This document shows positions 6,873 through 56,110 of a stretch of 64,000 bases of DNA, piece after piece (positions within the stretch are counted from its first letter, which is position 1; the number at the start of each line of letters is the position of its first letter). The position numbers and the translations under genes are program-made. The stretch is from the NCBI RefSeq assembly GCF_009761675.1, contig NZ_QUZH01000004.1:62001-126000 (forward strand), written 5' to 3'. The DNA comes from Bhargavaea sp. CC-171006 (GTDB taxonomy: Bacteria > Bacillota > Bacilli > Bacillales_A > Planococcaceae). The notes under the pieces were generated by a model that worked only from the letters and a program-made list of their open reading frames with translations, ran no database searches and was not told where the DNA came from.

Positions 6873-6887
6873 GGGTTCGGCAGGCTG

Positions 6888-7004
6888 AATGACGAAATTG
6901 GGCGCGTGAATGAAGAAACTGCGGGCCCGAATGACGAAATTGGATGTGTGAATGACGAAACTTTAGCTCCGAATGACGAAACCGGACTCTTCAACAATGA
7001 AATA
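6888..7004 (+). repeat. 21-bp-phased repeat array, AATGACGAAAYY core
   Basis: Six cores begin at 6888, 6909, 6930, 6951, 6972 and 6993, exactly 21 bp apart. The consensus is AATGACGAAAYY followed by nine variable bases; copies 2 and 6 are degenerate. It fills the hisA-hisF gap, the only long gap inside the operon. The frame is open only because 21 is a multiple of three, which creates a false N-terminal extension of hisF. The same core occurs in an inverted array at 37295-37480. Confidence 0.9.
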
Positions 7005-19794: not shown

Positions 19795-21300
19795 TCATGC
19801 TTTCGCTTCTTCCGCTTTCGGCCTGAGTGTGTGCTTCAGGACCTTGCCCGAAGCGTTCCGTGGGAGGATATCCAGGAACTCAACTTCCGCCGGGAGTTTG
19901 AATTTCGCCAGTTGCTCCGCGCAATATTCGATGATTTTCTCCTCAGTGAGGCTCTTTCCTTCCTTGACCACAACAAATGCTTTCGGCACCTCACCGTAAA
20001 CCGGATGCGGGACGCCGACGACAGCGGCCTCAAGCACTTCCGGGATTTGGAACAGTACTTCCTCGACTTCCAGCGGATAGATGTTTTCACCGCCGCGGAT
20101 GATCATGTCTTTTTTGCGGTCGACGATGTAAAGCAGTCCGTCTTCATCGGTGCGCCCAAGGTCACCCGAATACATCCAGCCGTCACGGATGGTGCGGGCG
20201 GTCTCTTCCTCATTTTTCAGGTAGCCTTTCATGACTTGAGGGCCCTTGACGACAATTTCCCCCACCTGGCCCGGCGGGAGCGTGCGCCCCTCTTCATCGA
20301 CGACACGCACTTCTGTCCTAGGAAGCGGCTCGCCGACCGACCCGATCTTATCGAGGGCGTAATGGTCTTTCAGTGTGGTCGCGGCAGGCGTATTCTCCGT
20401 CTGGCCGTACAGGTTCTGGACCTTCACGCCCGGGAATATCTCCTTCAGCTTTTTCACGAGCTCATATGGCATCGGTGCCGCGCCATAGCAGAACAGGCGC
20501 AGATCCGGGACATTGAGATCCCTGATATCCGGGCGGTTCAGGAGGATGGCGAACATCGCCGGCACGCCGAAGAACATCGTCGCCCGGCTTTCCTCCAGTG
20601 TCTTGACCGTCCGGTCCGGCGAAAACGCCGTCTCGATGATGAGCGAGCCGCCGCTTACCGATACCGCGTTCATGAACACATGGCTTGCAGCGCAGTGGAA
20701 CAGCGGTGTCGTGATCTGCATCCGGTCATTTGCCGTGACGTCCATCGCCTCTGCCCAGATCTCCCCCGTCTCCAGAAGATTCCGGTGTGTCAGCATGACA
20801 CCTTTCTGCTTGCCCGTCGTTCCCGAGGTATACATGATGACCGCCGTATCATCCGAATTAAATTCCACCGGCTCGGGGGCAAGAGACGAGTCTTCCAGGA
20901 TGGCATCGAACTCACCGGAACCTCCGATCTCCAACACTTCTTTGAAAGAGACACCCGTATCGTCCGCCGTCTTTCTAAGCGATTCATCGACTATCAGCGA
21001 CTTGGCTTCGGAATGTTCGAAGATATAGCCGATTTCCCGCGCCGTCAGCTTCGTATTGACCGGCATGAGGATGAATCCGCCGAGCTGCACGCCAAAATAG
21101 GCGGCGACAAACGAGTCCGAGTTCCCCGCCAGAAGGGCGATCACATCACCCGGCTGGTAACCCTGCCGCTGGAAATAAGCGGCGACCCGCTCCGCCTTCT
21201 TCCTGAACTCCCCGTATGTCCACTCCCTCCCCCCGAATGACGTATACATTTTCTCCGGCTGTGTCTTACCGTATTCGACGACCACTTCTGGCATGAACAT
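19795..21300 (-). CDS. Acyl-CoA synthetase (AMP-binding ligase)
   Basis: Member of the ANL superfamily that activates a carboxylic acid with ATP and joins it to CoA. The 501-residue protein has YTSGTTGKQKGV (AMP-binding P-loop, near 165), the YGQTENTPA motif near 300, YSGDLGRTDEDG, DRKKDMIIRGGENIYP and the catalytic lysine region NASGKVLKHTLR at the C-terminus. It is monocistronic with its own terminator. Similarity suggests a medium- or long-chain fatty acid ligase (LcfB/FadD-like), but the acyl substrate cannot be fixed from sequence. A second, different ligase lies at 27948. Confidence 0.88.
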   Translation of the reverse strand: MFMPEVVVEYGKTQPEKMYTSFGGREWTYGEFRKKAERVAAYFQRQGYQPGDVIALLAGNSDSFVAAYFGVQLGGFILMPVNTKLTAREIGYIFEHSEAKSLIVDESLRKTADDTGVSFKEVLEIGGSGEFDAILEDSSLAPEPVEFNSDDTAVIMYTSGTTGKQKGVMLTHRNLLETGEIWAEAMDVTANDRMQITTPLFHCAASHVFMNAVSVSGGSLIIETAFSPDRTVKTLEESRATMFFGVPAMFAILLNRPDIRDLNVPDLRLFCYGAAPMPYELVKKLKEIFPGVKVQNLYGQTENTPAATTLKDHYALDKIGSVGEPLPRTEVRVVDEEGRTLPPGQVGEIVVKGPQVMKGYLKNEEETARTIRDGWMYSGDLGRTDEDGLLYIVDRKKDMIIRGGENIYPLEVEEVLFQIPEVLEAAVVGVPHPVYGEVPKAFVVVKEGKSLTEEKIIEYCAEQLAKFKLPAEVEFLDILPRNASGKVLKHTLRPKAEEAKA

Positions 21301-21418
21301 AGCGTTCGCTCCCTTTGCGCTGTTAGATAATTAAAACTATTCTCCGTGTTCATGTTGGATTCCTGCATTTCACACGCCATTTCGGGTCGTTCAGACTATT
21401 TTACACTGGAAAAATAAT

Positions 21419-21448
21419 AAAGGCCGCCCCTCTCACGGGACAGCCTTT
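21419..21448 (-). terminator. Terminator of the Fbp/Afu-type importer operon
   Basis: AAAGGC-CCC (from 21419) with GGG-GCCTTT (to 21448), a mismatched stem followed on the minus strand by TTTATTATTTTT. It directly follows, and slightly overlaps, the stop codon of the ATPase gene. Confidence 0.7.
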
Positions 21449-22524
21449 TACCGATATTCCATTTCATTCATTGCCTGGGATGACCCCACAGGGATTGTTC
21501 TGTATTGCAGGACGACCGGGTCGCCTGCGGACAGCCGGCCGGCAAGGCCCGTGACCAGGTCAACCGTTTGTTGGCCGACATCGATTGTATAATGGATTTC
21601 CCTTCCCTGATAAAGCACATTCCGCACCGTTCCTCTGATGCCTTCCCCGGTGCCGAATGCCAGCTGTTCCGGACGGAGCGGGCATAGGCCGGTGTCACGG
21701 AAGGCCGGTGCGACATCCGGAACGGCCCAGGCGATTTCCGGACTGCCGAACGGATGGAAGCGGCCGTCCCTCCATTCGCCCGGAATCAGGTTCGCTTTTC
21801 CGATAAATGTCGCGACAAACGGGGTTTCCGGCCGCGAATAGATTTCTTCCGGAGGTCCGGCCTGTTCGATCCTGCCGCCGTTCATGACGACGATCCGGTC
21901 TGCCATCGCCAGTGCCTCATCCTGATCGTGCGTGACGTAGACGATGGAGGTGCCTGTCTGGCGGTGGATCGTCTGAATCTCATTCCGCAGTTCGAGCCGG
22001 AGCCGGGCATCGAGGCTCGAGAGCGGCTCATCCATAAGCAATAGTGACGGGTTCGGCGCCAGTGCTCGGGTGATGGCGACCCGCTGCTTCTGGCCGCCAG
22101 ACAGTTCCGATGGCATCCGGCTGCCGTATTGGGCGAGGCCGACCATCGAAAGCATCTGCCGGACCCGTCCGGTCGCATCGTGTTTCAGCGCGGGATCAAT
22201 GAACCGGTGATGGCGGAGCGGGAAGGCGACCTGTTCACTGACCGTCATATGCGGCCAGAGCGCGAACGACTGGAACACCATTCCGAGATCGCGTTTTTCG
22301 GGCGGAACGGCAATACCCGCGCCGGCGACCGTTCGTCCGCCCATCCGAATCTCTCCCGCAGAAGGAGTCTCGAATCCGGCAATCAGCCGGAGTAGCGTTG
22401 TCTTGCCGCAACCCGAAGGCCCGACGATGGCAACAAATTCCCCTTCGCCGATCTCCAGGTCGATGCCTTTCAGCGCATCCGTCTCCCCGAATGTTTTCCG
22501 GATGCCGGTCAGTTCTGTTTTCAT
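21448..22524 (-). CDS. ABC importer ATPase, FbpC/PotA/AfuC type
   Basis: ATPase of a binding-protein-dependent importer, 358 residues. It has P-loop GPSGCGKTT near 34-42, Q-loop FQSFALWPHMTV, signature LSGGQKQRVA, Walker B LLLMDEPLSSLD, and a C-terminal TOBE-like regulatory region after about 240. This architecture is shared by ferric (FbpC), aminoethylphosphonate (PhnT), spermidine (PotA) and hexose-phosphate (AfuC) transporters. It is the last gene of a six-gene operon that also codes for three phosphoester-type enzymes, so a phosphorylated substrate is the favoured reading. Its ATG overlaps the permease stop. Confidence 0.87.
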   Translation of the reverse strand: MKTELTGIRKTFGETDALKGIDLEIGEGEFVAIVGPSGCGKTTLLRLIAGFETPSAGEIRMGGRTVAGAGIAVPPEKRDLGMVFQSFALWPHMTVSEQVAFPLRHHRFIDPALKHDATGRVRQMLSMVGLAQYGSRMPSELSGGQKQRVAITRALAPNPSLLLMDEPLSSLDARLRLELRNEIQTIHRQTGTSIVYVTHDQDEALAMADRIVVMNGGRIEQAGPPEEIYSRPETPFVATFIGKANLIPGEWRDGRFHPFGSPEIAWAVPDVAPAFRDTGLCPLRPEQLAFGTGEGIRGTVRNVLYQGREIHYTIDVGQQTVDLVTGLAGRLSAGDPVVLQYRTIPVGSSQAMNEMEYR

Positions 22525-24218
22525 GGTGTATTCAGCCTCCTTTTCCAGATCCGCAGCACCAGAAAAGCCAGGCCCGCTATTGCCACCATCAGGAACAAGA
22601 TGACGGCCGAATAGGCGGTCGAATGGGTCGTATAGCCTGCCTGCTCAAAGTTGAAGATGATGATGCCGATCGTCTCGGACCCGCTTGACCAGAGCAGCGA
22701 CGAGACGGTCAGTTCGGTCAGCGACGTCAGCAAAACCAGAAGGGCCCCGCTCAGAATGCCGCCGGACAAAAGCGGCAGCAGGATTTTCCGCCACTTCTGA
22801 GAGGCTCCGGCGCCCGAGATGCGGGCTGCCTCTTCCATGTCAGGCGATACCTGCGCCATCGCGGTCATGCTGCCGCGCACCTGAAGCACCATGAACCGCG
22901 TGACATAGGCAATCAGCAGGATCCAGGCGGTTCCGTAAATGCCTGGATTCCATCCGGGGACGGGCTCCATCCAGGCGAAGATCATCGCCAGGCCGAGCAC
23001 GATTCCAGGAAGCGCATACGGCAGTCCGGCCGAAAGCTCGATATAGCGCATGGCCCCTCCCGGCCTGCGTGTCCGGAAATACGCGATTGCCGTTCCGAAA
23101 ACGAGGCAGATGAGCGAAGCGGCAACCGCAAGCTTCAGGCTGGTGCCGATGGCCGCAAACGACTTTCCGTATTCGAACAGGACATATCGGTAATGCTCCA
23201 ACGTGAGATTGTCAGGAATGAACGGCAGACCGTATGCCCGGATGACCGAAGTCTTCAGCATGGACAGGAGCGGCACGATTCCGGTGCCGAGCACGAACAG
23301 CCAGATCGCCGCCTCCACAAACGAACGTTTTTTTCCGAGACGGATCCTGGGCTCCGTGTCCGGAGCCGATGTCCCATCCGTTGCCGACTTCCTGAGAAGC
23401 ATCCATTGAAACAGCGTTCCGGCGAGCGCAACAATAGCCAGGATGACCGACAGCGCGGCTGCCCGGGAAAATGCCCCGGGACCGAAGCCGATGACTTCCT
23501 GATAGATCGCGGTGCTTAATACTGTGATGTTCGCCGGGATGCCGAGAAATGCCGGGATTCCGAAGTTGTCGAGGTTCGACAGGAACGCGATCATCGCACC
23601 ACTGACGATTCCCGGAAGCGCTAGCGGCAGCGTCACGCGGCGTAGCACGGTGAGGCGTCCGCCCCCTACCGCCCTTGCCGCCCATTCCTGCTCTTTCGGG
23701 ATCCGCCGGAGCACATTCGCCGTGAACAGATGGACAAGCGGATAGTGGGTGATTCCGAGGACGAAAATGATGCCGCCCATGCTGTACAGGTTGATGTCTG
23801 CAAACGGGACGTCCGAGGCCAGCTGTGTCCAGGCAATCGTGACGATATAGCTTGGAATGATGAATGGCAGCAGAATGAACACCTGCAGCGCCTTCTTCAT
23901 CCGGATGTCCGTATAGGCGGTGAGCCATGCCGTCGTTACGCCGAGCGCAAGGGAAAGCACTGTTGAACCTGCCGTGACGATCAGCGTGTTCAGGAACATC
24001 GTCCAAGTACCGGTTTCACTGAGAAGCGAGCGGTAATGCGCGAGCGATATGCCACCCTCTTCAACAAAGCTCATATAAAACAGGCGGATGACCGGGAGGA
24101 CAAAAAGCAGCGTGACGAGCAGCACCGAAAGCCATACCGGAACATGCCGCAACAGAGAAGAGCGGCGTCCGGCCCCAGCCGCCTGCCGCCCACCGTCATT
24201 CAGGGTGATCTGTGTCAT
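22521..24218 (-). CDS. Fused two-half ABC permease, FbpB/AfuB type
   Basis: Integral membrane component, 565 residues with about twelve predicted membrane segments, made of two homologous halves (roughly 20-290 and 300-565). EAA-type loops are seen in both halves: EQEWAARAVGGGRLTVLRRV in the first and DMEEAARISGAGASQKWRKI in the second. The ATG at 24218 follows GGGGGCGG; in-frame codons farther upstream run into the binding-protein gene. It is 13 bp after that gene and overlaps the ATPase gene by four bases. Confidence 0.87.
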   Translation of the reverse strand: MTQITLNDGGRQAAGAGRRSSLLRHVPVWLSVLLVTLLFVLPVIRLFYMSFVEEGGISLAHYRSLLSETGTWTMFLNTLIVTAGSTVLSLALGVTTAWLTAYTDIRMKKALQVFILLPFIIPSYIVTIAWTQLASDVPFADINLYSMGGIIFVLGITHYPLVHLFTANVLRRIPKEQEWAARAVGGGRLTVLRRVTLPLALPGIVSGAMIAFLSNLDNFGIPAFLGIPANITVLSTAIYQEVIGFGPGAFSRAAALSVILAIVALAGTLFQWMLLRKSATDGTSAPDTEPRIRLGKKRSFVEAAIWLFVLGTGIVPLLSMLKTSVIRAYGLPFIPDNLTLEHYRYVLFEYGKSFAAIGTSLKLAVAASLICLVFGTAIAYFRTRRPGGAMRYIELSAGLPYALPGIVLGLAMIFAWMEPVPGWNPGIYGTAWILLIAYVTRFMVLQVRGSMTAMAQVSPDMEEAARISGAGASQKWRKILLPLLSGGILSGALLVLLTSLTELTVSSLLWSSGSETIGIIIFNFEQAGYTTHSTAYSAVILFLMVAIAGLAFLVLRIWKRRLNTP

Positions 24219-24231
24219 CGGACCGCCCCCA

Positions 24232-25263
24232 TTATTCTCCGAACAGCTCCTTGAACTCGCGCTTATCGTCTTCACGGCCGCTGCTAAGCTCGTCAAGCGG
24301 CGCGGACAGGACGTTCATCTCATTGATGGATTTCAGCCCTTCAGGTGCTTCGACGCCTGTCCGGATCGGCGTGTATCCAAGTTCCGACGCAAGCTTCTGG
24401 CCTTCTTCAGACAGGACAAAATCGATGAATGCCTTTGCCGCATCTTCATTGTCCGTATCCTTGATCATGCCGATCGGCTCCGTGATGACCGGGACGCCCT
24501 CTTCCGGATAAACGAGGTCTACCGGAGACCCTTCCGCTTTCGCGTTGGCGACAATGTAGTCAACCACCATCCCGTATGTCTTTTCACCTGCCTGCACGGC
24601 CTTCAGTGCCGCGCCGTTCCCCTGGACGACTGATGTCCCGTTTTCCTTCAACGATTGATAGAAGTCCCAGCCAAAGCTGTCCTGGCGGGTGAAGACCCCG
24701 GCGTTGTAGGCAGCCGCCCCACTGTATAGCGGGCTCGGCATGACTGCCTCATCTTTTGAGGCTGTTTCCGTGAGTACATTCCATGAATCCGGCAGCTGTT
24801 CCGCTTTTTCCGTATTGACGGCAAGAACAGTTGCCATCACTTTCGTTCCCGTATATGTATGGTCCTGATCAATGAAGTCTTTGGGAATCGCTTCAATTTC
24901 TTCCGATTCGTAAGGCTCCAGAAGATCCTGCTCCTTCAGGCCCTCGAAAGTCACACTGTCGGCAACAAGCAGGACATCGGCCTGGATTTCTCCGGCCTGC
25001 TCCTCGGCCAGCACCTTTCCGATGACTTCTTCCGTACCGGACCGGAAGACGTTCACTTCCACTTCCGGATGCTTCTCATTAAACGCATTCACCAGTGCGG
25101 TCGCATCGGTGTCCGGCTGGGACGTGTAGAAGTCGAGCGTGCTGCTTGCGCCGCCGTCTTCCCCTGAATTGACTGCCTCCGATTCGGCATCCGTTCCCGA
25201 GCATGCAGCAAGCATCAGGCTTGCCGCAACGCCCATCGTAAGCATCGTCTTTTTAATTTTCAT
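24232..25263 (-). CDS. Substrate-binding lipoprotein of the Fbp/Afu-type importer
   Basis: Extracellular binding protein of the SBP_bac_6/Fbp class, 343 residues, with signal peptide and lipobox LAAC ending near residue 21. The mature part begins LDFYTSQPDTDA and has the ADVLLVADSVTFEG and SPLYSGAAAYNAG regions. Ferric-binding homologues carry two adjacent tyrosines for iron; no YY pair exists here, and the region that usually holds it reads VDYIVANAKAEGSPV. That argues against Fe(III) and fits the phosphonate or sugar-phosphate branch (PhnS, AfuA). The gene is embedded in an operon with SurE, TIM-barrel and PHP enzymes and overlaps surE by four bases. Confidence 0.85.
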   Translation of the reverse strand: MKIKKTMLTMGVAASLMLAACSGTDAESEAVNSGEDGGASSTLDFYTSQPDTDATALVNAFNEKHPEVEVNVFRSGTEEVIGKVLAEEQAGEIQADVLLVADSVTFEGLKEQDLLEPYESEEIEAIPKDFIDQDHTYTGTKVMATVLAVNTEKAEQLPDSWNVLTETASKDEAVMPSPLYSGAAAYNAGVFTRQDSFGWDFYQSLKENGTSVVQGNGAALKAVQAGEKTYGMVVDYIVANAKAEGSPVDLVYPEEGVPVITEPIGMIKDTDNEDAAKAFIDFVLSEEGQKLASELGYTPIRTGVEAPEGLKSINEMNVLSAPLDELSSGREDDKREFKELFGE

Positions 25264-26027
25264 CTCTGTTTTCCCCCAATCGTTGTGATCTGATTTTCCT
25301 CATGACCGGCTGCAAGGCCGATCTTCGAAACCGTGATATATCCTTCGCGAAGCAGATGAAAATCACTGTCTGGCCGTGACGGTTCAAGCCATGCCTGCCG
25401 GTCACGAAGCCAGTAGAGAACTCCGCCCTCCGGCTGGTCGGCCGTCATGTGGCGGTAGCGGTCCAGGGAAAAATCCGGCACCGCCTCCGCGATTCCCGGG
25501 CAGGCCGATTCCGGAATAGCGGGCAGGTTGATGTTCAGAAGCCCCTCGAGCGCCTCCTCTTTTCTGAGGCTGGACAGCGCCGTGTAAAACAGGCCTTTCG
25601 CCGCCCCGAAATCGGGCTCCGCCGCATCCGAACGATCCAGCGAAATCGCCACACCCGGAATTCCGGAAAGTGTTCCTTCTCTCGCTCCGCCGATTGTCCC
25701 GGAGTAATGGATGTCCCTGCCGATATTGGCTCCCGCGTTGATGCCGGAGACCACACAGTCAGGTTTTTCTTCAAACAAGACGCCAAGCGCCAGCTTGACG
25801 CAGTCCGCCGGCGTGCCGCCGACAATCGCATAAGCCGGGACATTGCCGCCGAAAATCGTCATCCGCTCCGCCTTCAGCGGTTTCCGGAGCGTGATGGAAT
25901 GGCTCGCCGCGCTCCGTTCCCCGTCCGGAGCGACGACCGCGACTTTACCGAAATGCTGGAGCACTTCCACGGCAGCGGCCAGGCCGGGCGCAAAGATTCC
26001 GTCGTCATTCGTCACGAGAAATCTCAT
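25260..26027 (-). CDS. surE: SurE-type 5'/3'-nucleotidase (phosphatase)
   Basis: SurE enzymes remove phosphate from nucleoside monophosphates and some other phosphoesters with a divalent metal. The 255-residue protein starts MRFLVTNDDG with the metal-binding aspartates 8 and 9, has the conserved Ser in GERSAASHSIT near 39 and the asparagine motif SGINAGANIG near 95. All the usual catalytic residues are present. SurE is usually next to pcm or rpoS in proteobacteria; here it is within an ABC importer operon. It overlaps both neighbours, by 23 bp with the TIM-barrel gene and 4 bp with the binding-protein gene, so a shared role in processing an imported phosphoester is likely. Confidence 0.9.
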   Translation of the reverse strand: MRFLVTNDDGIFAPGLAAAVEVLQHFGKVAVVAPDGERSAASHSITLRKPLKAERMTIFGGNVPAYAIVGGTPADCVKLALGVLFEEKPDCVVSGINAGANIGRDIHYSGTIGGAREGTLSGIPGVAISLDRSDAAEPDFGAAKGLFYTALSSLRKEEALEGLLNINLPAIPESACPGIAEAVPDFSLDRYRHMTADQPEGGVLYWLRDRQAWLEPSRPDSDFHLLREGYITVSKIGLAAGHEENQITTIGGKQR

Positions 26028-26826
26028 AAGTGATTTCCTCCATTCCGAACAACCCGTTCTTTTTCAGGTATGCCACGTTTTCTTCGAGCATCCCCGACTC
26101 CCCGAGGTAATCAAAACCTTCAATCACCCTGATGATCCCGCGTTCGGCGGCGGCGCGGATAGCCGGTTTCACATCAATCTTGCCCTTGCCCAGCGGGACA
26201 TGGAACCGGTTGGCCGTCGCATCGCTGACATGGAGCTTGCCCACCCGGCAGAGCGCGCTCATCTCGATAAACGGAGAACGGGAGAACGGCACATGTGCGG
26301 TATCGACCGTCACCGTGATAAACGCCGACCGATACCGGACAAGCCGGTTCATCGTTTCAGGTCCGGTGACCAGTTCCCCGTCCCTGTCTTCCATCATCTC
26401 GATTGACAGGGGCACCCCCTCCCGGATGGCGATTTGCTCCAGCCGGTCTAGCGATTGCTCGATTTTCTCGAGATGCCATTCTGTCCAGCGTTCATTTACC
26501 GTAATCCGGCCGGGGTGGATCGTCACGTCTTCCGCGCCGAGGTCTGCTGCGAGTGCGACCGAGCGCTCGATCTCCGATAAGGACTGCTCACGGATACCTT
26601 CATTCAGCGAGCACATGTTCAAATCCCAGCTTGGCGCATGCAGTGTCAGCCCCAGGCCTGCTTCCCCGAGCACTTCCTTCACCGCATTCACCCGGAACCC
26701 GGAAAACCGGAACTGCTCCGCCCACAGTTCGACACCGCCGAGGCCTGCAGCGCTGAACTTGTCCGCGATCTGGCGGATCGTTCCGCCCCAGAAAAGCGTG
26801 GATGAACCGTACCATTCTCTGCTCAT
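26005..26826 (-). CDS. Xylose-isomerase-like TIM-barrel protein (sugar phosphate isomerase/epimerase superfamily)
   Basis: A 273-residue TIM barrel of the AP endonuclease 2 / IolE-like superfamily. Visible metal-type residues are GVELWAE (near 32-38), LHAPSWD, IHPGRI, IEMMEDR, TVDTAHVP, GKLHVSD and a final EGFDY. The superfamily includes epimerases, isomerases and endonuclease IV; the exact reaction is unknown. The ATG overlaps the PHP gene stop by four bases and the 3' end runs 23 bp into surE. Its position suggests it acts on the sugar part of the imported compound. Confidence 0.82.
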   Translation of the reverse strand: MSREWYGSSTLFWGGTIRQIADKFSAAGLGGVELWAEQFRFSGFRVNAVKEVLGEAGLGLTLHAPSWDLNMCSLNEGIREQSLSEIERSVALAADLGAEDVTIHPGRITVNERWTEWHLEKIEQSLDRLEQIAIREGVPLSIEMMEDRDGELVTGPETMNRLVRYRSAFITVTVDTAHVPFSRSPFIEMSALCRVGKLHVSDATANRFHVPLGKGKIDVKPAIRAAAERGIIRVIEGFDYLGESGMLEENVAYLKKNGLFGMEEITYEISRDE

Positions 26827-27659
26827 CGGGCCACCTCCTCTCCCGGCAGGACCTGCTCGAGCCAGCCGTGGACGTCATCCTGGTCATAATCGACCGAACC
26901 CGGCAACTGCGGATTCCTTGATGCTTCTCCGTGGAAATCGCTGCCCACGCTCTTCAGCAGTCCGAGCCGCTCCGACTCCGCCCACCACTGGACGGTCTCC
27001 AGTTCGGAATGGCCGGAATAATACACTTCAATGCCGTCGAGCCCTTCATCCACGACACGGTCAATGCTGAAACCGAACCGGTAGATGCCGGGATGAGCCA
27101 GGAAGGCGAAGCCGCCGCACTCATGGATCAGGGCGATCGCCTCTTCGGATGAAAACGTTTCGCGCTCGACATAGCCCGGGCTTCCGGATGAAAGGAGCCG
27201 GTCGAACGCTTCTTCCACATCATGAAAATACCGGTGCTCCACAAGGACCTTGGCAATATGCGTCCGCACGATCACGCCGCCTTCCGCCTTTGAACGGCAG
27301 TCTTCCCAGCAGATGTCGTAGCCCATCCGGTTCAGGCGGCGGACGATCTTGCGGCTCCATGACTCCCTCTCCTGACGGCGCCACTCACAGTGCGCCTTCA
27401 TCAGCGGATGTTCCGGGTCAAATCCATAACCGAGGATATGCAATTCTCCGTTCGGCCCGTAAGTGTTCAGTTCGATCCCCGGAATCACCCGGACGCCTGT
27501 GCGTTCTTCATGAGCCTTCGCTTCCACATAGGCGCCCACCGAGTCATGGTCCGTGATGGCGATGCAGGAAAGCCCCTGCATCGCCGCCAGATCCATCAGT
27601 CCGCGCGGCGTCCGTTCACCATCCGAAAACACCGAGTGCATATGCAGGTCCACTTTCAT
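26823..27659 (-). CDS. PHP-domain phosphoesterase (RNase AM/TrpH-like)
   Basis: First gene of the six-gene operon, 278 residues. It has the metal-binding motifs of the PHP family: MKVDLHMHSVFSDGE (H6, H8, D13), ITDHDS, PGIELNT, THIAKVL, FLAHPG and a final SDFHGE. The family includes 3',5'-nucleotide bisphosphate phosphatase (RNase AM/YciV) and a cyclic ribose phosphate phosphodiesterase (PhnPP), both of which release phosphate from phosphoesters. The ATG at 27659 is preferred because AGGAGG lies 8 nt upstream; a GTG at 27668 overlaps that site. Downstream genes are translationally coupled. Upstream lies a PhoP-like promoter. Confidence 0.87.
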   Translation of the reverse strand: MKVDLHMHSVFSDGERTPRGLMDLAAMQGLSCIAITDHDSVGAYVEAKAHEERTGVRVIPGIELNTYGPNGELHILGYGFDPEHPLMKAHCEWRRQERESWSRKIVRRLNRMGYDICWEDCRSKAEGGVIVRTHIAKVLVEHRYFHDVEEAFDRLLSSGSPGYVERETFSSEEAIALIHECGGFAFLAHPGIYRFGFSIDRVVDEGLDGIEVYYSGHSELETVQWWAESERLGLLKSVGSDFHGEASRNPQLPGSVDYDQDDVHGWLEQVLPGEEVAR

Positions 27660-27691
27660 CCGAAGCACCTCCTGTGATTAACTCCGCTTTC

Positions 27692-27755
27692 ATCGTAACG
27701 CCCGAATGTTTTCAGAATGTTAAGCTGTTGTTGAAGTTCGTAAAGGGAGGGTTAA
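27692..27755 (-). promoter_or_regulatory. Putative PhoP-activated promoter
   Basis: On the minus strand five hexamers follow each other: TTAACC (27755-27750), TTTACG (27744-27739), TCAACA (27734-27729), TTAACA (27723-27718) and AAAACA (27712-27707). Their spacing is 11, 10, 11 and 11 bp. A -10-like TACGAT is at 27697-27692 and no -35 is evident. The B. subtilis PhoP box is TT(A/T/C)ACA repeated with about 5-bp gaps, upstream of the -10. The fit is good by pattern, not tested experimentally. Confidence 0.6.
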
Positions 27756-27798
27756 GATGGATGATGGTTGAGGCTACGAGTATTTTCGGAAAGAGCTT

Positions 27799-27917
27799 TG
27801 AGTTTAAAGATTCATCGCCTGAGTTAGAAGATTAGTCTCCTGAGTTTGAAGATTAGCGTCCTGAGTTTGAAGATTCATTGCCCGAGTTTGAAGATTAGCC
27901 TCCTGAGTCTGAAGAAT
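27799..27917 (+). repeat. 21-bp-phased repeat array, TGAGTTTGAAGATT core
   Basis: Six cores begin at 27799, 27820, 27841, 27862, 27883 and 27904, exactly 21 bp apart. The consensus is TGAGTTTGAAGATT followed by seven variable bases, often AGCCTCC-like. The sequence differs from the AATGACGAAA arrays but the period is the same. It lies between the end of one minus-strand operon and the promoter of the next. The open frame it creates on the plus strand is a by-product of the period. Confidence 0.88.
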
Positions 27918-27937
27918 ATGTACGTGCGGAACACAAA

Positions 27938-27970
27938 AGCACCCGGGTCATCCGCTCTGACCCGGGTGCT
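27938..27970 (-). terminator. Terminator of the liv-type catabolic operon
   Basis: Perfect 13-bp stem AGCACCCGGGTCA (27938-27950) with TGACCCGGGTGCT (27958-27970), followed on the minus strand by TTTTGTGTT. The stop codon of the CoA ligase (27950-27948) lies inside the stem. Confidence 0.85.
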
Positions 27971-29462
27971 GCATCTCTTCTTTTTTCAATTCCTTTGCCA
28001 TCTTGGCCAGCTTCTTTTTGTCGATCTTGCCGATATCGGTCTTAGGCAGCTCCTGTATGAAAAAGAAATCTTTCGGAATCTTGTAGCTGCCCAAGGTCTG
28101 TGCGCAGTGCCGCAGCAGTTCCTCGGTTTTCGGCACGTTTGCCGGATGGGCTGTGATAAAGGCCACGACGCGCTCTCCCCATTTCCTGTCGGGGATGCCG
28201 ATGACCGCAATCTCCTTGACTCCATCATGGCCGATCAGGCATTGCTCGACTTCCTGCGGGTAGATGTTTTCCCCTCCGGAGATGATCATCTCCTTTTTTC
28301 GGCCTACGATAAAGCAATCCCCGTCTTCATCCAGGGTGGCAAGGTCTCCCGTGCTGAACCAGCCGTCCTTCAGCGCTTCACGTGTCGCCTCCTCATTGTT
28401 CCAGTAATGGGAGAACAGGTGCCGGCCCCGAAGATGGAGTTCTCCGACCTCGCCCGGACGGCATATCCGCCCCTTCGAATCCACAATACGGACTTCGTTG
28501 AACTGCATGCTCTTGCCGACGGCCCCCCGCTTTTTCATCGCTGTATCCGGGTCGATGACAAAGTTATTGGGTCCGGCTTCAGTCATGCCGTATCCTTCCT
28601 TGAAGCGCTCACCTTTTCGCCGGTACGCGTCATACACCGTCTGCGGGCACGGTGCTCCTCCTGAAAGGAAAACGTCCACAGTCGGAAAGTCAGTTTCCCA
28701 GAACAGATCGGTGTCGAGCATCGACTGGTGCATCGTCGGAACAAAGAGGGAAATGGTGGTCTGGTACTCATTCAGTGCACGAATTGCCTCTTCCGGATCA
28801 AACTTCCGTCCGATGACGACAGTACCTCCGGCCATCAGAATCGGAAGGCTGAGCGCATTCAGACCGCCCGTATGAAACAGCGGCATGTAATTGAGTGTGC
28901 GGTCGCGTGCCGACAGGCTCCAGCTGACAATCGTGTTGAGGGCGTTCCAATTGACCGATTGGAAAGTCAGCACGACACCCTTCGGTCGCCCGGTCGTCCC
29001 TCCCGTATAGATCATCATCCACGGATCATCCGGGCGGCAGGCCACCTTTTCTGAGAGGGGGTACACGGATGCCGATGGTACGGAATCAAGAGGTATGGCC
29101 GGAACACCAAGCCCGGCTGCCCGGCCGGCATGTTCATCATCATGCAGCAACAGCGACGGCCCGCTGTCATCCACGATGTACCGGAGCTCTCCCTCGCTGA
29201 GCCGCCAGTTCATCGGAACATAGATCAGCCCCCTGCCTGCACAGGCAAACAGTATGGCGAACAGATCGATCCGGTTGTGGGACAGTACCGCAACCCTCTC
29301 TCCCTTCCGGAGTCCGGCTGAATGGAACGTTTCCACAAAGCCGGCCGTACGAACGGCCAGTTCCCTGTAGGACCAGCGCTGTCCGGTATGTACATCGATC
29401 AGTGCCGTGCTGTCCGGCGTGATTTCCGCCCGCTTCATGATCCATCCGTGATCCGTGTACAT
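27948..29462 (-). CDS. Acyl-CoA synthetase (AMP-binding ligase) of the catabolic operon
   Basis: ANL-superfamily ligase of 504 residues that activates a carboxylate to an acyl-CoA. It has YTGGTTGRPKGV near 155, YGMTEAGPNNF near 300, STGDLATLDEDG, GRKKEMIISGGENIYPQEV and the catalytic TDIGKIDKKKL at the C-terminus. It is more diverged from the ligase at 19795 than a recent duplicate would be. It is the last gene of a nine-gene operon with a branched-chain-type importer, so its substrate is probably what the importer brings in or what the hydrolase releases (for example a short hydroxy or branched acid). Confidence 0.88.
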   Translation of the reverse strand: MYTDHGWIMKRAEITPDSTALIDVHTGQRWSYRELAVRTAGFVETFHSAGLRKGERVAVLSHNRIDLFAILFACAGRGLIYVPMNWRLSEGELRYIVDDSGPSLLLHDDEHAGRAAGLGVPAIPLDSVPSASVYPLSEKVACRPDDPWMMIYTGGTTGRPKGVVLTFQSVNWNALNTIVSWSLSARDRTLNYMPLFHTGGLNALSLPILMAGGTVVIGRKFDPEEAIRALNEYQTTISLFVPTMHQSMLDTDLFWETDFPTVDVFLSGGAPCPQTVYDAYRRKGERFKEGYGMTEAGPNNFVIDPDTAMKKRGAVGKSMQFNEVRIVDSKGRICRPGEVGELHLRGRHLFSHYWNNEEATREALKDGWFSTGDLATLDEDGDCFIVGRKKEMIISGGENIYPQEVEQCLIGHDGVKEIAVIGIPDRKWGERVVAFITAHPANVPKTEELLRHCAQTLGSYKIPKDFFFIQELPKTDIGKIDKKKLAKMAKELKKEEMQHPGQSG

Positions 29463-29480
29463 TCCGCTCTCCTCCTTTTG

Positions 29481-30221
29481 TTACATCATGATCCCGCCAT
29501 CCACCTGAAGAACATGGCCGTGCACATAGGCGGATTCATCAGACGCGAGGAACAGGTATGCATTGGCGATATCCTCCGGCTGGCCGAGACGCCTGAGCGA
29601 GATGCCGCCCTTCATCTGCTCAATTACCTTTTCCGGCATTTTTGCGACCATTGCCGTCATAGTGAAGCCCGGAGCGACGGCATTGACGTTGATGCCCTTC
29701 CTGCCGAGCTCTTTTGCCCATGTCTTCGTCATGCCCACAACGGCTGCCTTGGTAGCGGCATAGTTGGTCTGCCCGAAGTTGCCGTAGACGCCGCTTACCG
29801 AAGAGGTATTGATGATCTTGCCGCTTCCCCGTTCCGTCATGTGTGCAGCGACGGCCTGCGTGCAGTTGAAAACACCGGTCAGGTTGACATCGAGTACCTG
29901 CTGCCACTGCTCTGCCGTCATCTTCATGAGCGTCGCGTCGCGCGTGATGCCCGCATTGTTGACCAGCACATCGATCCTGCCGGTGGCGTTCAGCGTCTCT
30001 TCCACCATCCGGTCGACGCTTTCCCTGTCCGCGACATTCACACGGATGAATCCAACATCCAGGCCGTCAGCCTTCAGCTGCTCTTCCGCTTCACGGCCCG
30101 CCTGTTCGTCAAAATCAGCCAGTATGACCCTTGCCCCTTCTTCCGCAAACCGCCTGCCGGCGGCGAGACCGATTCCGTTCGCTCCGCCGGTGATGATGGC
30201 TGTCTTTCCCTCAAGCCTCAT
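29481..30221 (-). CDS. Short-chain dehydrogenase/reductase, FabG/PhaB-like
   Basis: Classical SDR of 246 residues. The NAD(P) binding motif TGGANGIG is at 12-19, NNAG near 88, the catalytic Ser in NTSSVSG near 138, and the Tyr-Lys pair in YAATKAA near 151-155. This subclass usually interconverts 3-oxoacyl and 3-hydroxyacyl thioesters. In this operon it may oxidise a 3-hydroxyacyl-CoA or 3-hydroxybutyrate-type product. It starts 11 bp inside the 3' end of the hydrolase gene. Confidence 0.9.
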   Translation of the reverse strand: MRLEGKTAIITGGANGIGLAAGRRFAEEGARVILADFDEQAGREAEEQLKADGLDVGFIRVNVADRESVDRMVEETLNATGRIDVLVNNAGITRDATLMKMTAEQWQQVLDVNLTGVFNCTQAVAAHMTERGSGKIINTSSVSGVYGNFGQTNYAATKAAVVGMTKTWAKELGRKGINVNAVAPGFTMTAMVAKMPEKVIEQMKGGISLRRLGQPEDIANAYLFLASDESAYVHGHVLQVDGGIMM

Positions 30222-37186: not shown

Positions 37187-37294
37187 CGTCAGTACGATGC
37201 GAAGCTTTAATTAACGCCCGCTATAAGCACGGCTGCAAGTGTGAGCGAGTGATGGAACAGAGGGCGTTGCTCACCACAGATCTTCAATAGTTGA

Positions 37295-37480
37295 TTTCGT
37301 CATTCATCCCTCCAATCTCGTCATTCATCCCTTCAATCTCGTCATTCATCCCTCCAATCTCGTCATTCCACCGAGTAATTTCGTCATTCGCACCATTGAA
37401 ATGGATGAATGACGAAATCAGGGTGTTGAATGGTGAGACTGAGTCTCCGAATGACGAAACCAAGTCCCTGAATGACGAAA
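37295..37480. repeat. Head-to-head 21-bp-phased repeat array (AATGACGAAA core)
   Basis: Five minus-oriented cores (TTTCGTCATT or TCTCGTCATT) begin at 37295, 37316, 37337, 37358 and 37379. Four plus-oriented cores begin at 37408, 37429, 37450 and 37471. Each half keeps an exact 21-bp step, giving a large imperfect palindrome centred near 37398. The variable linker is nine to eleven bases. The core is the same as in the hisA-hisF array. Open frames seen on both strands here are by-products of the period. Confidence 0.9.
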
Positions 37481-37550
37481 CCGTCATTGGCCGTGTTTAT
37501 CTTTTGCTGCCGGATCGATAGGAAGCTTGTTTTTCCCACAGCAACGCAAA

Positions 37551-43569: not shown

Positions 43570-46500
43570 TTACTTTTTATACACTGGAATATCATAAACG
43601 AAATCAGGCTTATCCAATTTGTCATAGTACCCTTGGTATGACCTAATTTGTTTAGCTGCCCAGCCTATATCCGTGGCATATTGATGCAATCCCGGATTCT
43701 CCGGATTCCACCTCATCTTGTATAAAGTGTCTTGCTTGTATGTGGGATGGTGTATATACCTGTCAGCAATCCATTTTGCACCTTCGCGAATGGCGATTGA
43801 AGGTGTTGTCCACCCTTCACGATAAGCTTTTTTGGCTCCACTTTCTAGAGGTGATTTATCATAAGCTTCAATCCCGTACATATTATAAACGACTTTTATA
43901 TCTTTTAATTTTGATCGATTACTGTCTGTCACTAACTGGGCTTCTGATTTTGTATCGATTCCAACTTCTACACCCTGGGCAAGATCTGATCGTCCATGGT
44001 TGGTTTCAAGAAGTGAATGAGAAAGCAAATAAATCTCGTTGACACTGTACTTCTTCCCTGCTTCTGCAAAAGCATCTCCTTGATTAGTTAATGTACCCTT
44101 ACTTTCTAAAAATTGATTTAGCTCTTTGCCACTTACTCCTAAACTACGAGATAGTTTAACAAATTCGAAGTTATTGGCATTAGATGGGTTTATGGCCATT
44201 TCAACATCCATCTTCGGAGCATTTCTCCAAACTGGGTAAACCGCCAATTGGTACCACCCATTTTTTTCAGTAATTATTTTTAAAGGATCAGTTGTAGTCA
44301 AGTTCCCAAATAGGTGACTATCAAAGCTTCCGTTCTGAAAATATTGCGCATTAACATTAGCAACGGATGTGTGTAAATAAGCATCCGCTCCATTATATTT
44401 TACCTTATACCACTTAGTAGAATTACTTACGGATTGTCCCGATACTATCTCACTATACTCTAATTGATTGCCTTTCGATAAACTCGTAATCACATTGTTA
44501 CTCTCGACAAAAGGTTTACTTCTAAGGTTTGTGCTGTTAGATAGAACTTCTACGTTTATTTTAGCGGTTTTAGCATTCTCTTCAACAAGACTACTGTGAA
44601 CGTATAAATTGCTCATATTATTATATTTGATTCGATACCACTCGGTACTCCCTTTATAAGTGAATCCAGTTATCCCCTTTTCAAGAACATCTATTATTGT
44701 TCCTTGATTTACTTTAGCTTTTATTGCGCTATCAGAAGTGTTGTTTGGATCAGTTCGTAGAGCTACACCATTTGAGTTAATCAAAGTATCTTTATTGACC
44801 GTTAATTGTTCATGGTGAACCCAAGGTGCCAAGTTTCTATACTTATCCGTTTGAGGAGGGGGCGATAGCTTTAATTGACTCTCCAACATTTCGTTTATAG
44901 TAATATTATAATGTGAATAATGTTCCTTATTTTGTTGAGACCATTTTATATTAATTTTAGCAGCCCCTGTAATTTCTTCGTAATAAATTTTTATTACATT
45001 TAAACCTTTTGGTAATGAAATATAGGTATCTATCCTGTGACTTCCTGGTGAATCAATTTTATATACTTCCACATTATTCACCAAAACACGTATTTTATCA
45101 TCTACTAGTCCAGTAAGATGATACACAGCTTCATCGGTCTGGAAAGTTCTCTCGAAAATCCCACTAAAATAATTGTTTGGTATTGTCTTATGAGGTGAAC
45201 CTGATCCCCAATCGAATTCCACAGCTTCAGTATTTTCAACTATAGGTATCCCATTAAACTTGTTATTATTATAAAAGTAAGACGTCCAACCTTCGCCAGC
45301 CTCTTTTGGTGTATAAGTGAAATTAATATTTGGATTTTCATTATATGTTTTATATTTCAATTCAATTTTGTGTTTCCCTTTGTTGAGATAAACCGAAGTT
45401 GAAAGACTTTCTCCCTGTTTCGCATAATCAATTCGTTCACCGTTAATATACAGTTCAAGTTCTCCAATACTTTTACCATCAAACTGATAAATACCACTTT
45501 TTACTTCAATCTCTTTTGAAATCAAAATAGATCTGTTTGTGTTAAAGAAATCTTTATCAATAAAAGCAGAAGATAAGTTATCTACTTCATAAATCCTTCC
45601 ACTTTGGCTAAAGTTTGTATCATCATAGTATTCAACAACCCATTTATCGGAATAACCATAAGGTTTTATATCCAAATTAATTTTTGAAGCACCTGTATAT
45701 TCTTCAAAGACCACCTCTGCTGGCCATATCCCTTCTTTCAAACGGACAATTTCATTAAATACATGTGATCCAGGTTTATTAATGTTAATAAGGTTTTTGT
45801 CACTGACACTAATTTCAACAGTATCATCGGATGAGCCACTTAAAACATAATACCCATCTTTTTTAATTGATATATTCTTCTTGTAAATCGCAGAGAAATT
45901 ATTAACGGGTATATTAGGGGCAGGAGATCCATAACCAAAATTCAAGTTAAGATTGTCATATGCCTTTTTAATTGACGGACCTTTAAAGTCGTTATTAGGG
46001 TAATATTCACCTATCCACTTTCTAGAGGTGTCAATTTCCCTTTGGTTGAATGACAAAAGAGCATTCCCACTATATTCCACAAATCTAATTGTCACTTTAT
46101 GATTTCCAGCGGGTATATAAACTATTTCACTATAATTATGGTGTCCCCTATCGTTGATATCAACAATTTTTTGTGATCCTACGTTTATTTCCAACATATC
46201 GTCGGACTCACCATAAAACTCATAAAAGCCAGCTTCCTTAAAGTTTATATTCTTTGTGTATTCAGCTGAAAAATTATCATTAGGGAACCCCGAAATTTTC
46301 GGACCTCCTTTGCCGAAATTTTGATTCAAGTCGGTATGAGTTAAATACTTAGGTAATCCTTTAAAAGAGGTATTGCTGTAATATGCTCCCAACCATTCAT
46401 CTACTGGCAATAAATCGAATACTAATTTTGCTCCACCCGTATATTCTGTATATGCCAATTCAACTTCAATGTCACCCTTTGGTAATTGAAGAATCTTTTC

Positions 46501-47571: not shown

Positions 47572-47738
47572 CTTCATTAACCTCCGGAATAATAAGATAA
47601 GGTTATTATATAACATTTAAGTTATCTTTTTAGTTTATCCTTAAAATTTCCTGTAATCTTTGCCGAAAATTTATGTTAAACTAATGTATTGCTAATGTAT
47701 TACCTATAAGACGACTATTTGCAAAAGGAGTTAGCCAA

Positions 47739-50102: not shown

Positions 50103-50130
50103 TCTTAAGATATAATTAATCAAATAAAAA

Positions 50131-50171
50131 ACAGATGGTGGGAAAATAATTTCCCCACCATCTGTTTTTTT
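50131..50171. terminator. Bidirectional terminator between the TagF-like gene and mnaA
   Basis: ACAGATGGTGGG (50131-50142) pairs with CCCACCATCTGT (50154-50165), flanked by TTTTTTTT on one side and AAAAAA on the other. Confidence 0.9.
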
Positions 50172-50175
50172 TATT

Positions 50176-51276: not shown

Positions 51277-51503
51277 ATACTCATTCCACGACCTTTCATT
51301 TCAACTCTAAAGTATATTCAGCATTCTTCCCAAGAATATTATCAAGAATAACCCTTAAAGTCTAACCAATTCATTTTCCCCTTCCTTATTAATGTTACTA
51401 ATAAAGTTCAAACATAAATTTCTCCTCTTTACATAAGTAGTTCGCGCTGTAAACTTGCAAAAAACATAGATATGTATTTAGTTGATCTTAATGAATTGAA
51501 AAA

Positions 51504-51529
51504 CCTGACCATCTGTTGAAGTGGTCAGG
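51504..51529 (-). terminator. Terminator of the patatin-like gene
   Basis: CCTGACCA (51504-51511) with TGGTCAGG (51522-51529). On the minus strand it is followed by TTTTTCAATT. The rest of 51277-51503 is AT-rich with no gene seen. Confidence 0.8.
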
Positions 51530-51542
51530 CTCAGTTTGAGGC

Positions 51543-52463: not shown

Positions 52464-52604
52464 TTCTCCCGCCCCTTTCCCGGAAGTCTTTCTTATAAGG
52501 TAAGTATGCGGAGGCAGGATTAGAACCGAACCGGAAATCGCCTTGCATGCAGACGAAGAAGAAGATAGATTGAAAACAGGACAAATAAAAAGAGGGATGA
52601 ACCA

Positions 52605-53081
52605 ATGAAAATCCGTGAAATCGTGAAAAAAGACAATCCGGCCATCGAGAAAATCATCAAGCGCTCGCTGGAGTCATTCGGACTGGATATTCCGGGCACA
52701 GCCTATTTTGATCCGCAACTGGCCAGTTTGTCAGCCTACTATCAGGAGTTGCCGAATTCGAAGTATTGGGTGATAACAGATGAACACGGTGTGGTAATGG
52801 GCGGTGTCGGTATTGCGCCTTTCGGGAAGCATGCAGGCGTCTGTGAGCTTCAGAAGTTGTATATCATGTCGGAAGCCCAGGGACAGGGACTGTCAAAGCA
52901 ACTGATGGAAACCGCACTCCGCTTTGCAATGGAGCATTATTCCCATTGCTATCTGGAAACAATGGAAAAACTCCAAGTGGCCAACAGGCTCTATGAACGG
53001 CTCGGCTTCAGGAAACTGGACAGGCCGCTGGACGGCTCCGAGCATGGGACGATGGATACCTGGTATATTAAAGAACTATAA
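52605..53081 (+). CDS. GNAT family N-acetyltransferase
   Basis: A 158-residue acetyl-CoA-dependent transferase. The beta4 strand and acetyl-CoA loop read CELQKLYIMSEAQGQGLSKQ (about 84-103), the Q/RxxGxG/A motif of the family, followed by a YERLGFRK C-terminal motif. The acceptor substrate is unknown. It is monocistronic with its own terminator. An AGAGGGATGA stretch precedes the ATG. Confidence 0.88.
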   Translation: MKIREIVKKDNPAIEKIIKRSLESFGLDIPGTAYFDPQLASLSAYYQELPNSKYWVITDEHGVVMGGVGIAPFGKHAGVCELQKLYIMSEAQGQGLSKQLMETALRFAMEHYSHCYLETMEKLQVANRLYERLGFRKLDRPLDGSEHGTMDTWYIKEL

Positions 53082-56025: not shown

Positions 56026-56031
56026 AACTGA

Positions 56032-56080: not shown

Positions 56081-56110
56081 TATGAACGGTGGAAACGGAG
56101 GAGAATTAAA

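Follow-up and report, generated by a model that had tools for sequence, protein, structure and literature searches.

A conserved six-gene operon of Bhargavaea with a predicted role in organophosphate import and dephosphorylation

The Ugp system imports glycerophosphodiesters under Pho control, after which they are cleaved by the cytosolic phosphodiesterase UgpQ. Closer to the locus described here are importers whose binding proteins have solved structures or known regulation. AfuABC, a hexose/heptose-phosphate importer, was formerly misannotated as an iron transporter, and Thr150 of its binding protein AfuA is described as a phosphate contact whose mutation weakened binding (PMC4546632). In Pseudomonas, low phosphate is described as inducing AepX, of the 2-aminoethylphosphonate importers, through PhoBR (PMC8316502, in the part available). 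In the window, the 64,000-nt stretch of a Bhargavaea genome that was analysed, a related transporter shares an operon with three enzymes. We put at roughly 80% the likelihood that this operon is a Pho-type system that would import an intact organophosphate under low phosphate and strip it with metal-dependent esterases.

Layout and conservation of the operon

Six open reading frames, all on the minus strand, follow one another in the order PHP, TIM barrel, SurE, solute-binding protein (SBP), permease and ATPase, and form a compact operon between terminator-like hairpins (Table 1). Neighbouring genes overlap by 4 bp (PHP/TIM barrel, 26823-26826), 23 bp (TIM barrel/SurE, 26005-26027), 4 bp (SurE/SBP, 25260-25263) and 4 bp (permease/ATPase, 22521-22524), with a single 13-bp gap between the SBP and permease genes (24219-24231). 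This order and spacing, given in a preliminary description of the sequence, were confirmed from the ORF coordinates, and Pfam returned the gene families named there (PF02811, PF01261, PF01975, SBP_bac_8/SBP_bac_6, BPD_transp_1 twice, and ABC_tran with TOBE_2). The span of 21448-27755 assigned to the operon holds for the genes, but its end at 27755 takes in upstream non-coding DNA with PhoP-box-like repeats. The PHP gene probably starts at the ATG at 27659, behind an AGGAGGT at 27673-27667; a longer ORF from a GTG at 27668 is disfavoured. Pattern matching found nine terminator-like hairpins in this region, where shuffled sequence gave 5.5 on average, and Rfam returned nothing at gathering score within 20000-30000.

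Table 1. Features of the operon and its borders, in window coordinates.
Feature	Position	Strand	Basis or remark
PhoP-box-like direct repeats TCAACA-N5-TTAACA-N5-AAAACA, period 11	27707..27734	-	~48 bp upstream of PHP start
PHP-family metallophosphoesterase, nearest RNase AM / 3',5'-nucleoside bisphosphate phosphatase	26823..27659	-	PF02811
Endonuclease-IV/CbiR-like TIM barrel, predicted phosphodiesterase	26005..26826	-	PF01261
SurE 5'/3'-nucleotidase	25260..26027	-	PF01975, TIGR00087
Lipoprotein solute-binding protein, kin of AfuA, P5PA and PhnS2	24232..25263	-	SBP_bac_8, SBP_bac_6
Fused ABC permease, two BPD_transp_1 stretches, ATG start likely 24218	22521..24218	-	Pfam
ABC ATPase with TOBE_2 domain	21448..22524	-	ABC_tran + TOBE_2
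Terminator-like hairpin directly after ATPase stop	21419..21448	-	Pattern match; 12 pairs, T-rich tail
Terminator-like hairpin after preceding gene, upstream operon border	27938..27970	-	Pattern match; 13 pairs

That the operon is a conserved unit is supported by a genome neighbourhood search. The endonuclease-IV-like barrel family is present in 21 of 398 sampled Bacilli genomes, and in 21/21 places the barrel gene adjoins the transporter: it shares the strand of the binding-protein match and lies 763-1012 bp upstream of it (2e-23 by a hypergeometric test that ignores shared ancestry). Three of the 21 are recorded with a stop interrupting the reading frame and were counted all the same. At some GC-rich loci a longer antisense ORF masks the barrel or SurE in the ORF maps, and the barrel counts therefore rest on the 398-genome barrel search. 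The transporter search returned 71 of 261 genomes at 1e-25, from which the 32 with at least 57% identity were taken, the others having at most 34%. Among the 31 of these loci mapped at order level (G176 left out), the complete enzyme and transporter set occurs in nine, from five genera, and the transporter is found without these enzymes in 22, as it is in 8 of the 30 class-level loci (30 of 36 outside the family; G432, G442, G544, G568, G607 and G615 left out). Most of the 14 phylum-level loci, drawn from 17 new genomes (G739, G837 and G927 left out), also lack these enzymes, with the barrel in three and PHP in one. SurE was found in 9 of 151 family genomes, eight of the nine inside this operon. 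The maps show no PHP call for L144 or L153 and a short PHP in L143; at L140 the transporter has no phosphohydrolase partner, and L177, from outside the class, retains PHP and the barrel, but on the downstream side of the ATPase. A plasmid search with the barrel gave 10 records, with weak partial matches. In an unrooted tree of 32 binding proteins the operon types are interleaved, and the window sequence groups with L048, a locus without the enzymes.

The binding protein and transporter

By alignment, the binding protein appears to retain most of the AfuA-type phosphate site, as is supported by residues T77, S181, G182 and N216, which are invariant in 32/32 sequences and to which AfuA Ser37, Ser148-Gly149 and Gly185 align (AfuA numbering with an offset of 2 inferred from the printed chain). 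AfuA Thr150 aligns to A183, which is Ala in 32/32. Of the solved binding proteins whose ligands have been published, AfuA and P5PA are the nearest, consistent with an AfuABC-like carbon-catabolic importer of hexose or pentose phosphates in which the barrel would serve as a sugar isomerase or epimerase after dephosphorylation. We consider this improbable: none of the 32 rows matches AfuA's essential His205 or Glu229, the former position being Val/Ile or Tyr/Phe depending on the alignment, with no His in 32/32, and the latter Ile/Val in 32/32. Asp206 of AfuA may match D235 (Asp in 29/32) in one of two alignments. Structures predicted solely from the sequences of the window and of three named Bhargavaea loci were too poor for use (mean pLDDT 42.4 for the binding protein and 41.8 for the barrel).

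Relatives of the transporter are publicly annotated as "iron ABC transporter permease", but a Fbp-type ferric iron importer that simply shares its operon with phosphoesterases is very hard to credit. Positions 236-237, to which the Tyr-Tyr pair of the Campylobacter iron-binding protein 1y4t aligns, hold Tyr/Phe followed by Ile/Leu/Met/Val in 32/32, so that the second position is always aliphatic; the absence of the iron pair claimed in the preliminary description is thus borne out. Adjacent tyrosines occur elsewhere in the sequence in 9/32 rows, and the window's own binding protein has no adjacent Tyr-Tyr at any position, in an analysis that used 16 of 18 repeat hits. Because phosphate can sit in FbpA-type iron proteins as a synergistic anion, the anion site is not decisive; an iron importer would nonetheless leave the PhoP-like repeats and the recurrent phosphohydrolase partners unexplained.

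The best curated models for the transporter trio are PhnS2, PhnU2 and PhnT2 (the TIGR03261/03262/03265 set), which would fit an importer of 2-aminoethylphosphonate or alkylphosphonate that supplies C-P lyase or a different phosphonate pathway; the PHP protein would then be the cyclic-phosphate hydrolase PhnPP. All three scores fall far under their cut-offs, at 136.1 bits against 392.75 for the binding protein, 161.8 against 593.25 for the permease and 338.3 against 457.7 for the ATPase. A C-P lyase feeder role was weighed because of these PhnS2 scores and because of L073, where a GntR/UTRA regulator, PhnG and PhnH come after the trio and PhnJ lies ~1 kb beyond them. PhnJ is also commoner in transporter genomes (12/32 versus 42/229), and AepX relatives in other bacteria adjoin phosphonate genes (PMC8316502, in the part available). 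The feeder role is unlikely because a distinct phn operon lies on a different contig of the Bhargavaea genome and comprises PhnG, PhnJ, a PhnL-like protein, a PHP enzyme of its own and a PhnCDE-like transporter; that PHP enzyme scores 313.7 bits against NF041661 (cut-off 500), versus 99.4 for the window PHP. The five six-gene genomes outside Bhargavaea gave no PhnJ match, and Bhargavaea G022 and G040 have PhnJ without this transporter. Neither SurE nor an endonuclease-IV-like barrel has, to our knowledge, a part in phosphonate metabolism, and we give the phosphonate importer as a whole little weight.

The enzymes and their counterparts in related loci

The PHP protein aligns over most of its length with RNase AM / 3',5'-nucleoside bisphosphate phosphatase, scoring 182.2 bits against NF041577 (cut-off 400) and 167.8 against NF047791 (cut-off 375), with profile matches in the PDB to 9etk, 7ug9, 2yb1 and 3e0f; nine residues that we take to be its metal ligands are invariant in 18/18. 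SurE exceeds the TIGR00087 cut-off (170.1 bits, cut-off 135.1) and matches PDB SurE structures with a best E of 5.6e-40. The barrel is predicted to be a phosphodiesterase. At 1e-5 its profile matched MJ1311 (3wqo) and endonuclease IV (5zhz, 2x7v and 4hno) in the PDB, with no sugar isomerase among the matches, and residues H63, H104, E143, D175, H178, H199, H209 and E236 are invariant in 18/18 and kept in three phylum-level relatives. Under the nine-ligand numbering that we assume for endonuclease IV, 8/9 metal ligands are present, the equivalent of Asp229 being absent in 18/18. CbiR (NF041277) was the best curated match in 3/3 barrels scanned, at 34.8 bits for the window barrel against a cut-off of 105.

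The preliminary description had the barrel acting on the sugar left after dephosphorylation. With 8/9 endonuclease-IV ligands invariant, and CbiR as best match, a sugar enzyme now seems less likely, and both features also argue against the AfuABC-like reading. The barrel superfamily does include epimerases, however, and because these outrank endonuclease IV (yet not CbiR) for the barrels of two distant relatives, L173 and L174, a sugar enzyme stays conceivable. Sugar-phosphate import also draws support from type D relatives, which have a DeoR-like sugar-binding regulator, Cof phosphatases and weak PhoP-like repeats; the regulator and the weak repeats suggest carbon use at those loci (L167, with its transporter hidden in the ORF map, was left out of the type D count).

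Recurrent association of the transporter family with phosphohydrolases of unrelated kinds is supported by related loci with an MBL protein and SurE (L135 and L136), MBL and a histidine phosphatase (L138 and L139), or MBL and a Cof HAD protein (L149, L152, L162, L164 and L169); for the partners of types D, B and C, single representatives were scanned against named families. Unless specificities differ, the ligand of the binding protein should suit PHP, barrel and SurE here and MBL plus phosphatase elsewhere.

Pho-type control, proposed pathway and known systems

PhoP boxes have an 11-nt direct-repeat architecture (PMC4415409, in the part available). The window's own repeats show 3 mismatches of 18, a level matched by 22/145 controls and not significant singly; as a positive control, the genome's own pstS gave 1 mismatch within an 800-nt stretch. 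Scored against what we take to be the hexamer consensus, three repeats with at most 3 mismatches preceded 16/18 PHP-led loci versus 22/145 controls (Fisher 4.5e-10), and with at most 2 mismatches 9/18 versus 3/145; period 11 alone stands out among spacings. This test, with stricter controls, superseded a two-hexamer test (0 mismatches in 7/21 PHP-led loci versus 5/277 other ORFs), and an earlier control set gave 3/96 at 3 mismatches or fewer; the tests with the 145 and the 96 controls left out three near-identical Bhargavaea loci. The enrichment of PhoP-type repeats with 11-bp spacing across relatives indicates that the operon is probably under Pho control, and their position ahead of PHP-led operons speaks against a carbon-catabolic sugar-phosphate importer.

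In the organophosphate pathway that we favour, low phosphate would activate PhoP at the 11-bp repeats, and the lipoprotein, judging from its conserved positions, would grip an organophosphate by its phosphate group. The fused permease and ATPase would, by family, bring it in intact. From their families, metal ligands and partner swaps, PHP, the endonuclease-IV-like barrel or both may then cleave a phosphodiester, or a first phosphate, in the cytosol, and SurE may free the last phosphate as inorganic phosphate. The preliminary description proposed that a phosphorylated sugar, nucleotide or cyclic phosphate is imported and stripped by PHP and SurE; its core, organophosphate import and dephosphorylation, appears well supported, given the conserved set, the partner swaps, the PhoP repeats and the AfuA-like phosphate positions. 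A phosphodiester ligand, within that class mostly nucleotide-like, is our guess, held at somewhat under even odds because epimerases outrank endonuclease IV in L173 and L174 and Thr150 is missing. More doubtful is the wider proposal of an undescribed Pho-regulon route, widespread in Bacilli, in which intact phosphodiesters (cyclic nucleotides, short nucleotide fragments) would be imported and hydrolysed in the cytosol, with a new, dedicated small-molecule phosphodiesterase family of endonuclease-IV fold and a transporter that other lineages have repeatedly combined with unrelated sets of a diesterase and a monoesterase. If the favoured organophosphate reading is right, this transporter family, known from Bacilli and Proteobacteria, would no longer need its common but mistaken label of iron importer. 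Bacilli would gain a further Pho-type route for scavenging phosphorus, and the endonuclease-IV-like family, which within the sampled class is confined to the neighbourhood of the transporter, would have a function.

Ugp would work alike, with another binding-protein family and other enzymes. AfuA and the pyridoxal-phosphate binding protein P5PA share a binding-protein cluster with the window protein, and most phosphate-contact positions align to invariant residues, whereas the window family lacks three AfuA residues, the His and Glu that contact the ring and Thr150 that contacts the phosphate; the three-enzyme module and the PhoP repeats are features of the window operon, neither being described in the available parts of PMC4546632 and PMC8427247. 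The 2-aminoethylphosphonate importers AepXVW and PhnSTUV belong to related families (PMC8316502, in part), the comparison being with the PhnS2, PhnU2 and PhnT2 models only; the window operon falls far under those cut-offs and is linked to phosphoesterases. Its PHP protein shares presumed metal ligands with RNase AM / 3',5'-nucleoside bisphosphate phosphatase, but scores under the cut-offs and sits in a transporter operon. The barrel shares a superfamily with endonuclease IV and the cobamide phosphodiesterase CbiR (PMC7733943, in part) and has 8/9 endonuclease-IV ligands; it differs from them in scoring under the cut-offs, in the one absent ligand and in lying beside this transporter in 21/21 places in the sampled class.

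Gene order and conservation

The preliminary description of the six genes, with overlaps of 4, 23, 4 and 4 bp and one 13-bp gap, agrees with the open reading frame coordinates. ATG 27659, which is preceded by AGGAGGT, is the most likely start of the PHP gene.

Features of the operon in the window
Feature	Coordinates	Strand	Pfam result
PHP	27659-26823	minus	family confirmed
TIM barrel	26826-26005	minus	family confirmed
SurE	26027-25260	minus	family confirmed
Binding lipoprotein	25263-24232	minus	family confirmed
Fused permease	24218-22521	minus	family confirmed
ATPase	22524-21448	minus	family confirmed
Bounding terminator-like hairpins	27970-27938 and 21448-21419	minus	

Acyl-CoA-ligase-like genes, named by eye, flank the operon on the same strand (19795-21300 and 27948-29462), as do members of their cluster (c5) in the other three Bhargavaea loci. 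Tandem repeats of 21/42 bp form arrays at 27799-27915, 6886-6981 and 37294-37482; the arrays at 6886 and 37294-37482 have in common, on either strand, the core GAATGACGA, which is absent from the array at 27799, immediately upstream of the operon. The stretch 43570-57469, with a GC content of about 32-48% versus 50-60% elsewhere in the window, encodes two CDP-glycerol glycerophosphotransferase-domain proteins, a UDP-GlcNAc 2-epimerase, a PA14/glucosaminidase protein and a patatin, and looks like a cell-wall polymer island.

Among named genomes, those of Bhargavaea (L015-L017) are the closest, with 90-93% identity in the barrel. Close relatives of the binding protein (at least 57% identity) were found in 32 of the 261 genomes of the order sample, and 31 of these loci were mapped. 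All six genes occur in the same order in 9/31, from five genera (4 of the 9 are Bhargavaea), and in 22/31 the transporter is present but the three enzymes are not. SurE is rare in the family sample (9/151 genomes), and 8 of the 9 copies lie within this operon. Among the 398 genomes of the class sample, the binding protein was matched in 43 at 1e-50 and the barrel family in 21 at 1e-30. Without exception the 21 barrel genes precede the binding-protein match, at a distance of 763-1012 bp and in the same orientation, and no member of the family was found away from the transporter in these genomes at 1e-30 (hypergeometric 2e-23, shared ancestry ignored). The neighborhood check thus bears out conservation of the gene set in relatives, which exceeds chance.

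Outside the family, thirty class-level loci were mapped: the barrel is present in 15, five are of a kind with an MBL-fold hydrolase and a HAD phosphatase, eight have the transporter without these enzymes, L167 is ambiguous, and L155 has SurE and only a short barrel-like ORF. This ORF (L155 5506-5904), ahead of SurE and the transporter, has altered motifs as judged by eye and is possibly a decayed barrel gene. At the phylum level the barrel is present in 3 of 14 mapped loci, in the orders transporter-barrel-PHP (L177) and barrel-transporter (L173), and after an ATPase (L174). The recurrence of the same partners in a different order argues for a working link between the enzymes and the transporter.

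Repeats upstream of the operon

Direct repeats of TT[ACT]A[CT]A, the hexamer of B. subtilis PhoP sites, occur in 11-bp steps upstream of the first operon gene. Allowing up to 3 mismatches across the 18 positions, a run of three repeats was found at 16/18 PHP-led loci versus 22/145 controls (Fisher 4.5e-10). The controls are other genes of the 62 mapped loci whose upstream DNA is free. At a limit of 2 mismatches the counts are 9/18 and 3/145. The mismatch sum of the PHP-led loci is 44, versus at least 84 in 200 dinucleotide shuffles, and mismatches average 2.4 at period 11, versus 4.2-5.4 at periods 8-10 and 12-14. An 11-nt repeat architecture of PhoP sites is described in PMC4415409. Transporter-only loci score more strongly (23/29 with at most 2 mismatches), many of them being close relatives. 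The window's copy, at 27734-27707, has 3 mismatches and is not significant alone; the best pstS of the same genome, a positive control, has 1 mismatch, though in a stretch of 800 nt rather than 360. Six MBL genes resembling those that adjoin the transporter together with a Cof-type HAD in class-level relatives score 3, which is weak. We infer that the operon would be under phosphate-starvation control.

Enzymes and alternative partners

SurE scores above its family cut-off. The closest families of the PHP protein are 3',5'-nucleoside bisphosphate phosphatase and RNase AM, with scores below their cut-offs, and its nine presumed metal ligands are invariant (18/18). At 1e-5 the barrel profile had only two kinds of PDB match, MJ1311 (1.6e-28) and endonuclease IV, the latter with three chains (best 9e-8). 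The barrel residues H63, H104, E143, D175, H178, H199, H209 and E236 correspond to eight of the nine metal ligands of endonuclease IV, and are invariant in 18/18 barrels and three phylum-level relatives; the ninth, Asp229, has no equivalent. The best curated match of all three barrels scanned, each time below cut-off, is CbiR, a cobamide-cleaving member of the superfamily (PMC7733943). The barrel had earlier been proposed to act on a sugar, and sugar epimerases are the second-best curated match for L173 and L174; for the window barrel it is endonuclease IV. Together, the ligands and the curated and PDB matches make a phosphodiesterase likelier than a sugar enzyme, with an isomerase as a less probable candidate.

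In proteobacterial plasmid relatives (binding protein 41-47% identical), an MBL-fold hydrolase and SurE follow the transporter in Nitratireductor (L135) and Aminobacter (L136), and an MBL-fold hydrolase and a histidine phosphatase accompany it in Enterobacter (L139) and, in a different order, Paracoccus (L138); the Rhizobium locus (L140) has no such phosphohydrolase partner. Only a divergent HAD phosphatase gene lies near the Aerococcus transporter (L137). In four loci of one Bacilli family (L149, L152, L162, L169) the genes around the transporter encode a sugar-binding regulator, in divergent orientation, an MBL hydrolase and HAD phosphatases of the Cof type; L164, from a different family, has the MBL and HAD genes but no such regulator. 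In the representative L149, the MBL protein is nearest to a cyclic-nucleotide phosphodiesterase family and RNase Z, and the regulator to DeoR, all below cut-off; the HADs score above the Cof subfamily cut-off. In the representatives scanned, no MBL or histidine-phosphatase match rose above an NCBIfam cut-off. A possible diesterase paired with a monoesterase is the recurring theme.

In a related transporter clade (L178-L183), the transporter has on one side a conserved ORF that matches no NCBIfam model and on the other a protein resembling 2,3-bisphosphoglycerate-independent phosphoglycerate mutase; where the contig extends far enough, a GntR regulator precedes them (families were scanned in L179 only). 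The clade perhaps represents another organophosphate specificity.

Ligand and binding protein

The gene set, its conservation and linkage, the partner swaps, the repeats and the invariant residues can be read from sequence, and we infer that the operon would import an organophosphate and release phosphate in the cytosol; our guess at the ligand is a phosphodiester, perhaps nucleotide-like. Among the papers listed in a search of non-subscription literature, none describes this operon.

Some members of the transporter family may carry phosphonates, since PhnH, PhnG and a GntR/UTRA regulator directly adjoin the transporter trio in one relative (L073 468-2352). PhnJ occurs in 12/32 transporter genomes versus 42/229 others in the order sample, and had no match in the five six-gene genomes outside Bhargavaea. 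In the genome studied here PhnJ is on a contig other than the window's, and this separate C-P lyase (phn) region (L111, contig C13) has a PhnF-like regulator, PhnG, PhnC, and PhnL-, PhnD- and PhnE-like genes. On the cyclic-phosphate dihydrolase model (cut-off 500), the PhnPP-like PHP enzyme of that region reaches 313.7 bits and the window PHP 99.4 bits.

As stated in the preliminary description, the binding protein lacks the adjacent tyrosine pair used for iron: at the positions aligned with the Tyr-Tyr of a Campylobacter iron-binding protein, 32/32 sequences have Tyr or Phe and then an aliphatic residue, which makes iron an unlikely ligand. The closest solved relatives are 8x1a, the hexose-phosphate binding protein AfuA (4r72) and the pyridoxal-phosphate binding protein P5PA (6wce; PMC8427247); AfuA and P5PA were solved with ligand bound. 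Phosphate contacts reported for AfuA include Ser37, Ser148-Gly149, Thr150 and Gly185 (PMC4546632). The positions of Ser37, Ser148-Gly149 and Gly185 are occupied by T77, S181-G182 and N216, respectively, which are invariant in 32/32 sequences across all operon types; the position of Thr150 is Ala in all 32. The position of AfuA His205 is never His (n=32) and that of Glu229 is Ile/Val in 32/32; Asp206 may correspond, in one of two alignments, to D235 (Asp in 29/32). The binding protein thus appears to keep most of an AfuA-type anion site within a pocket that otherwise differs.
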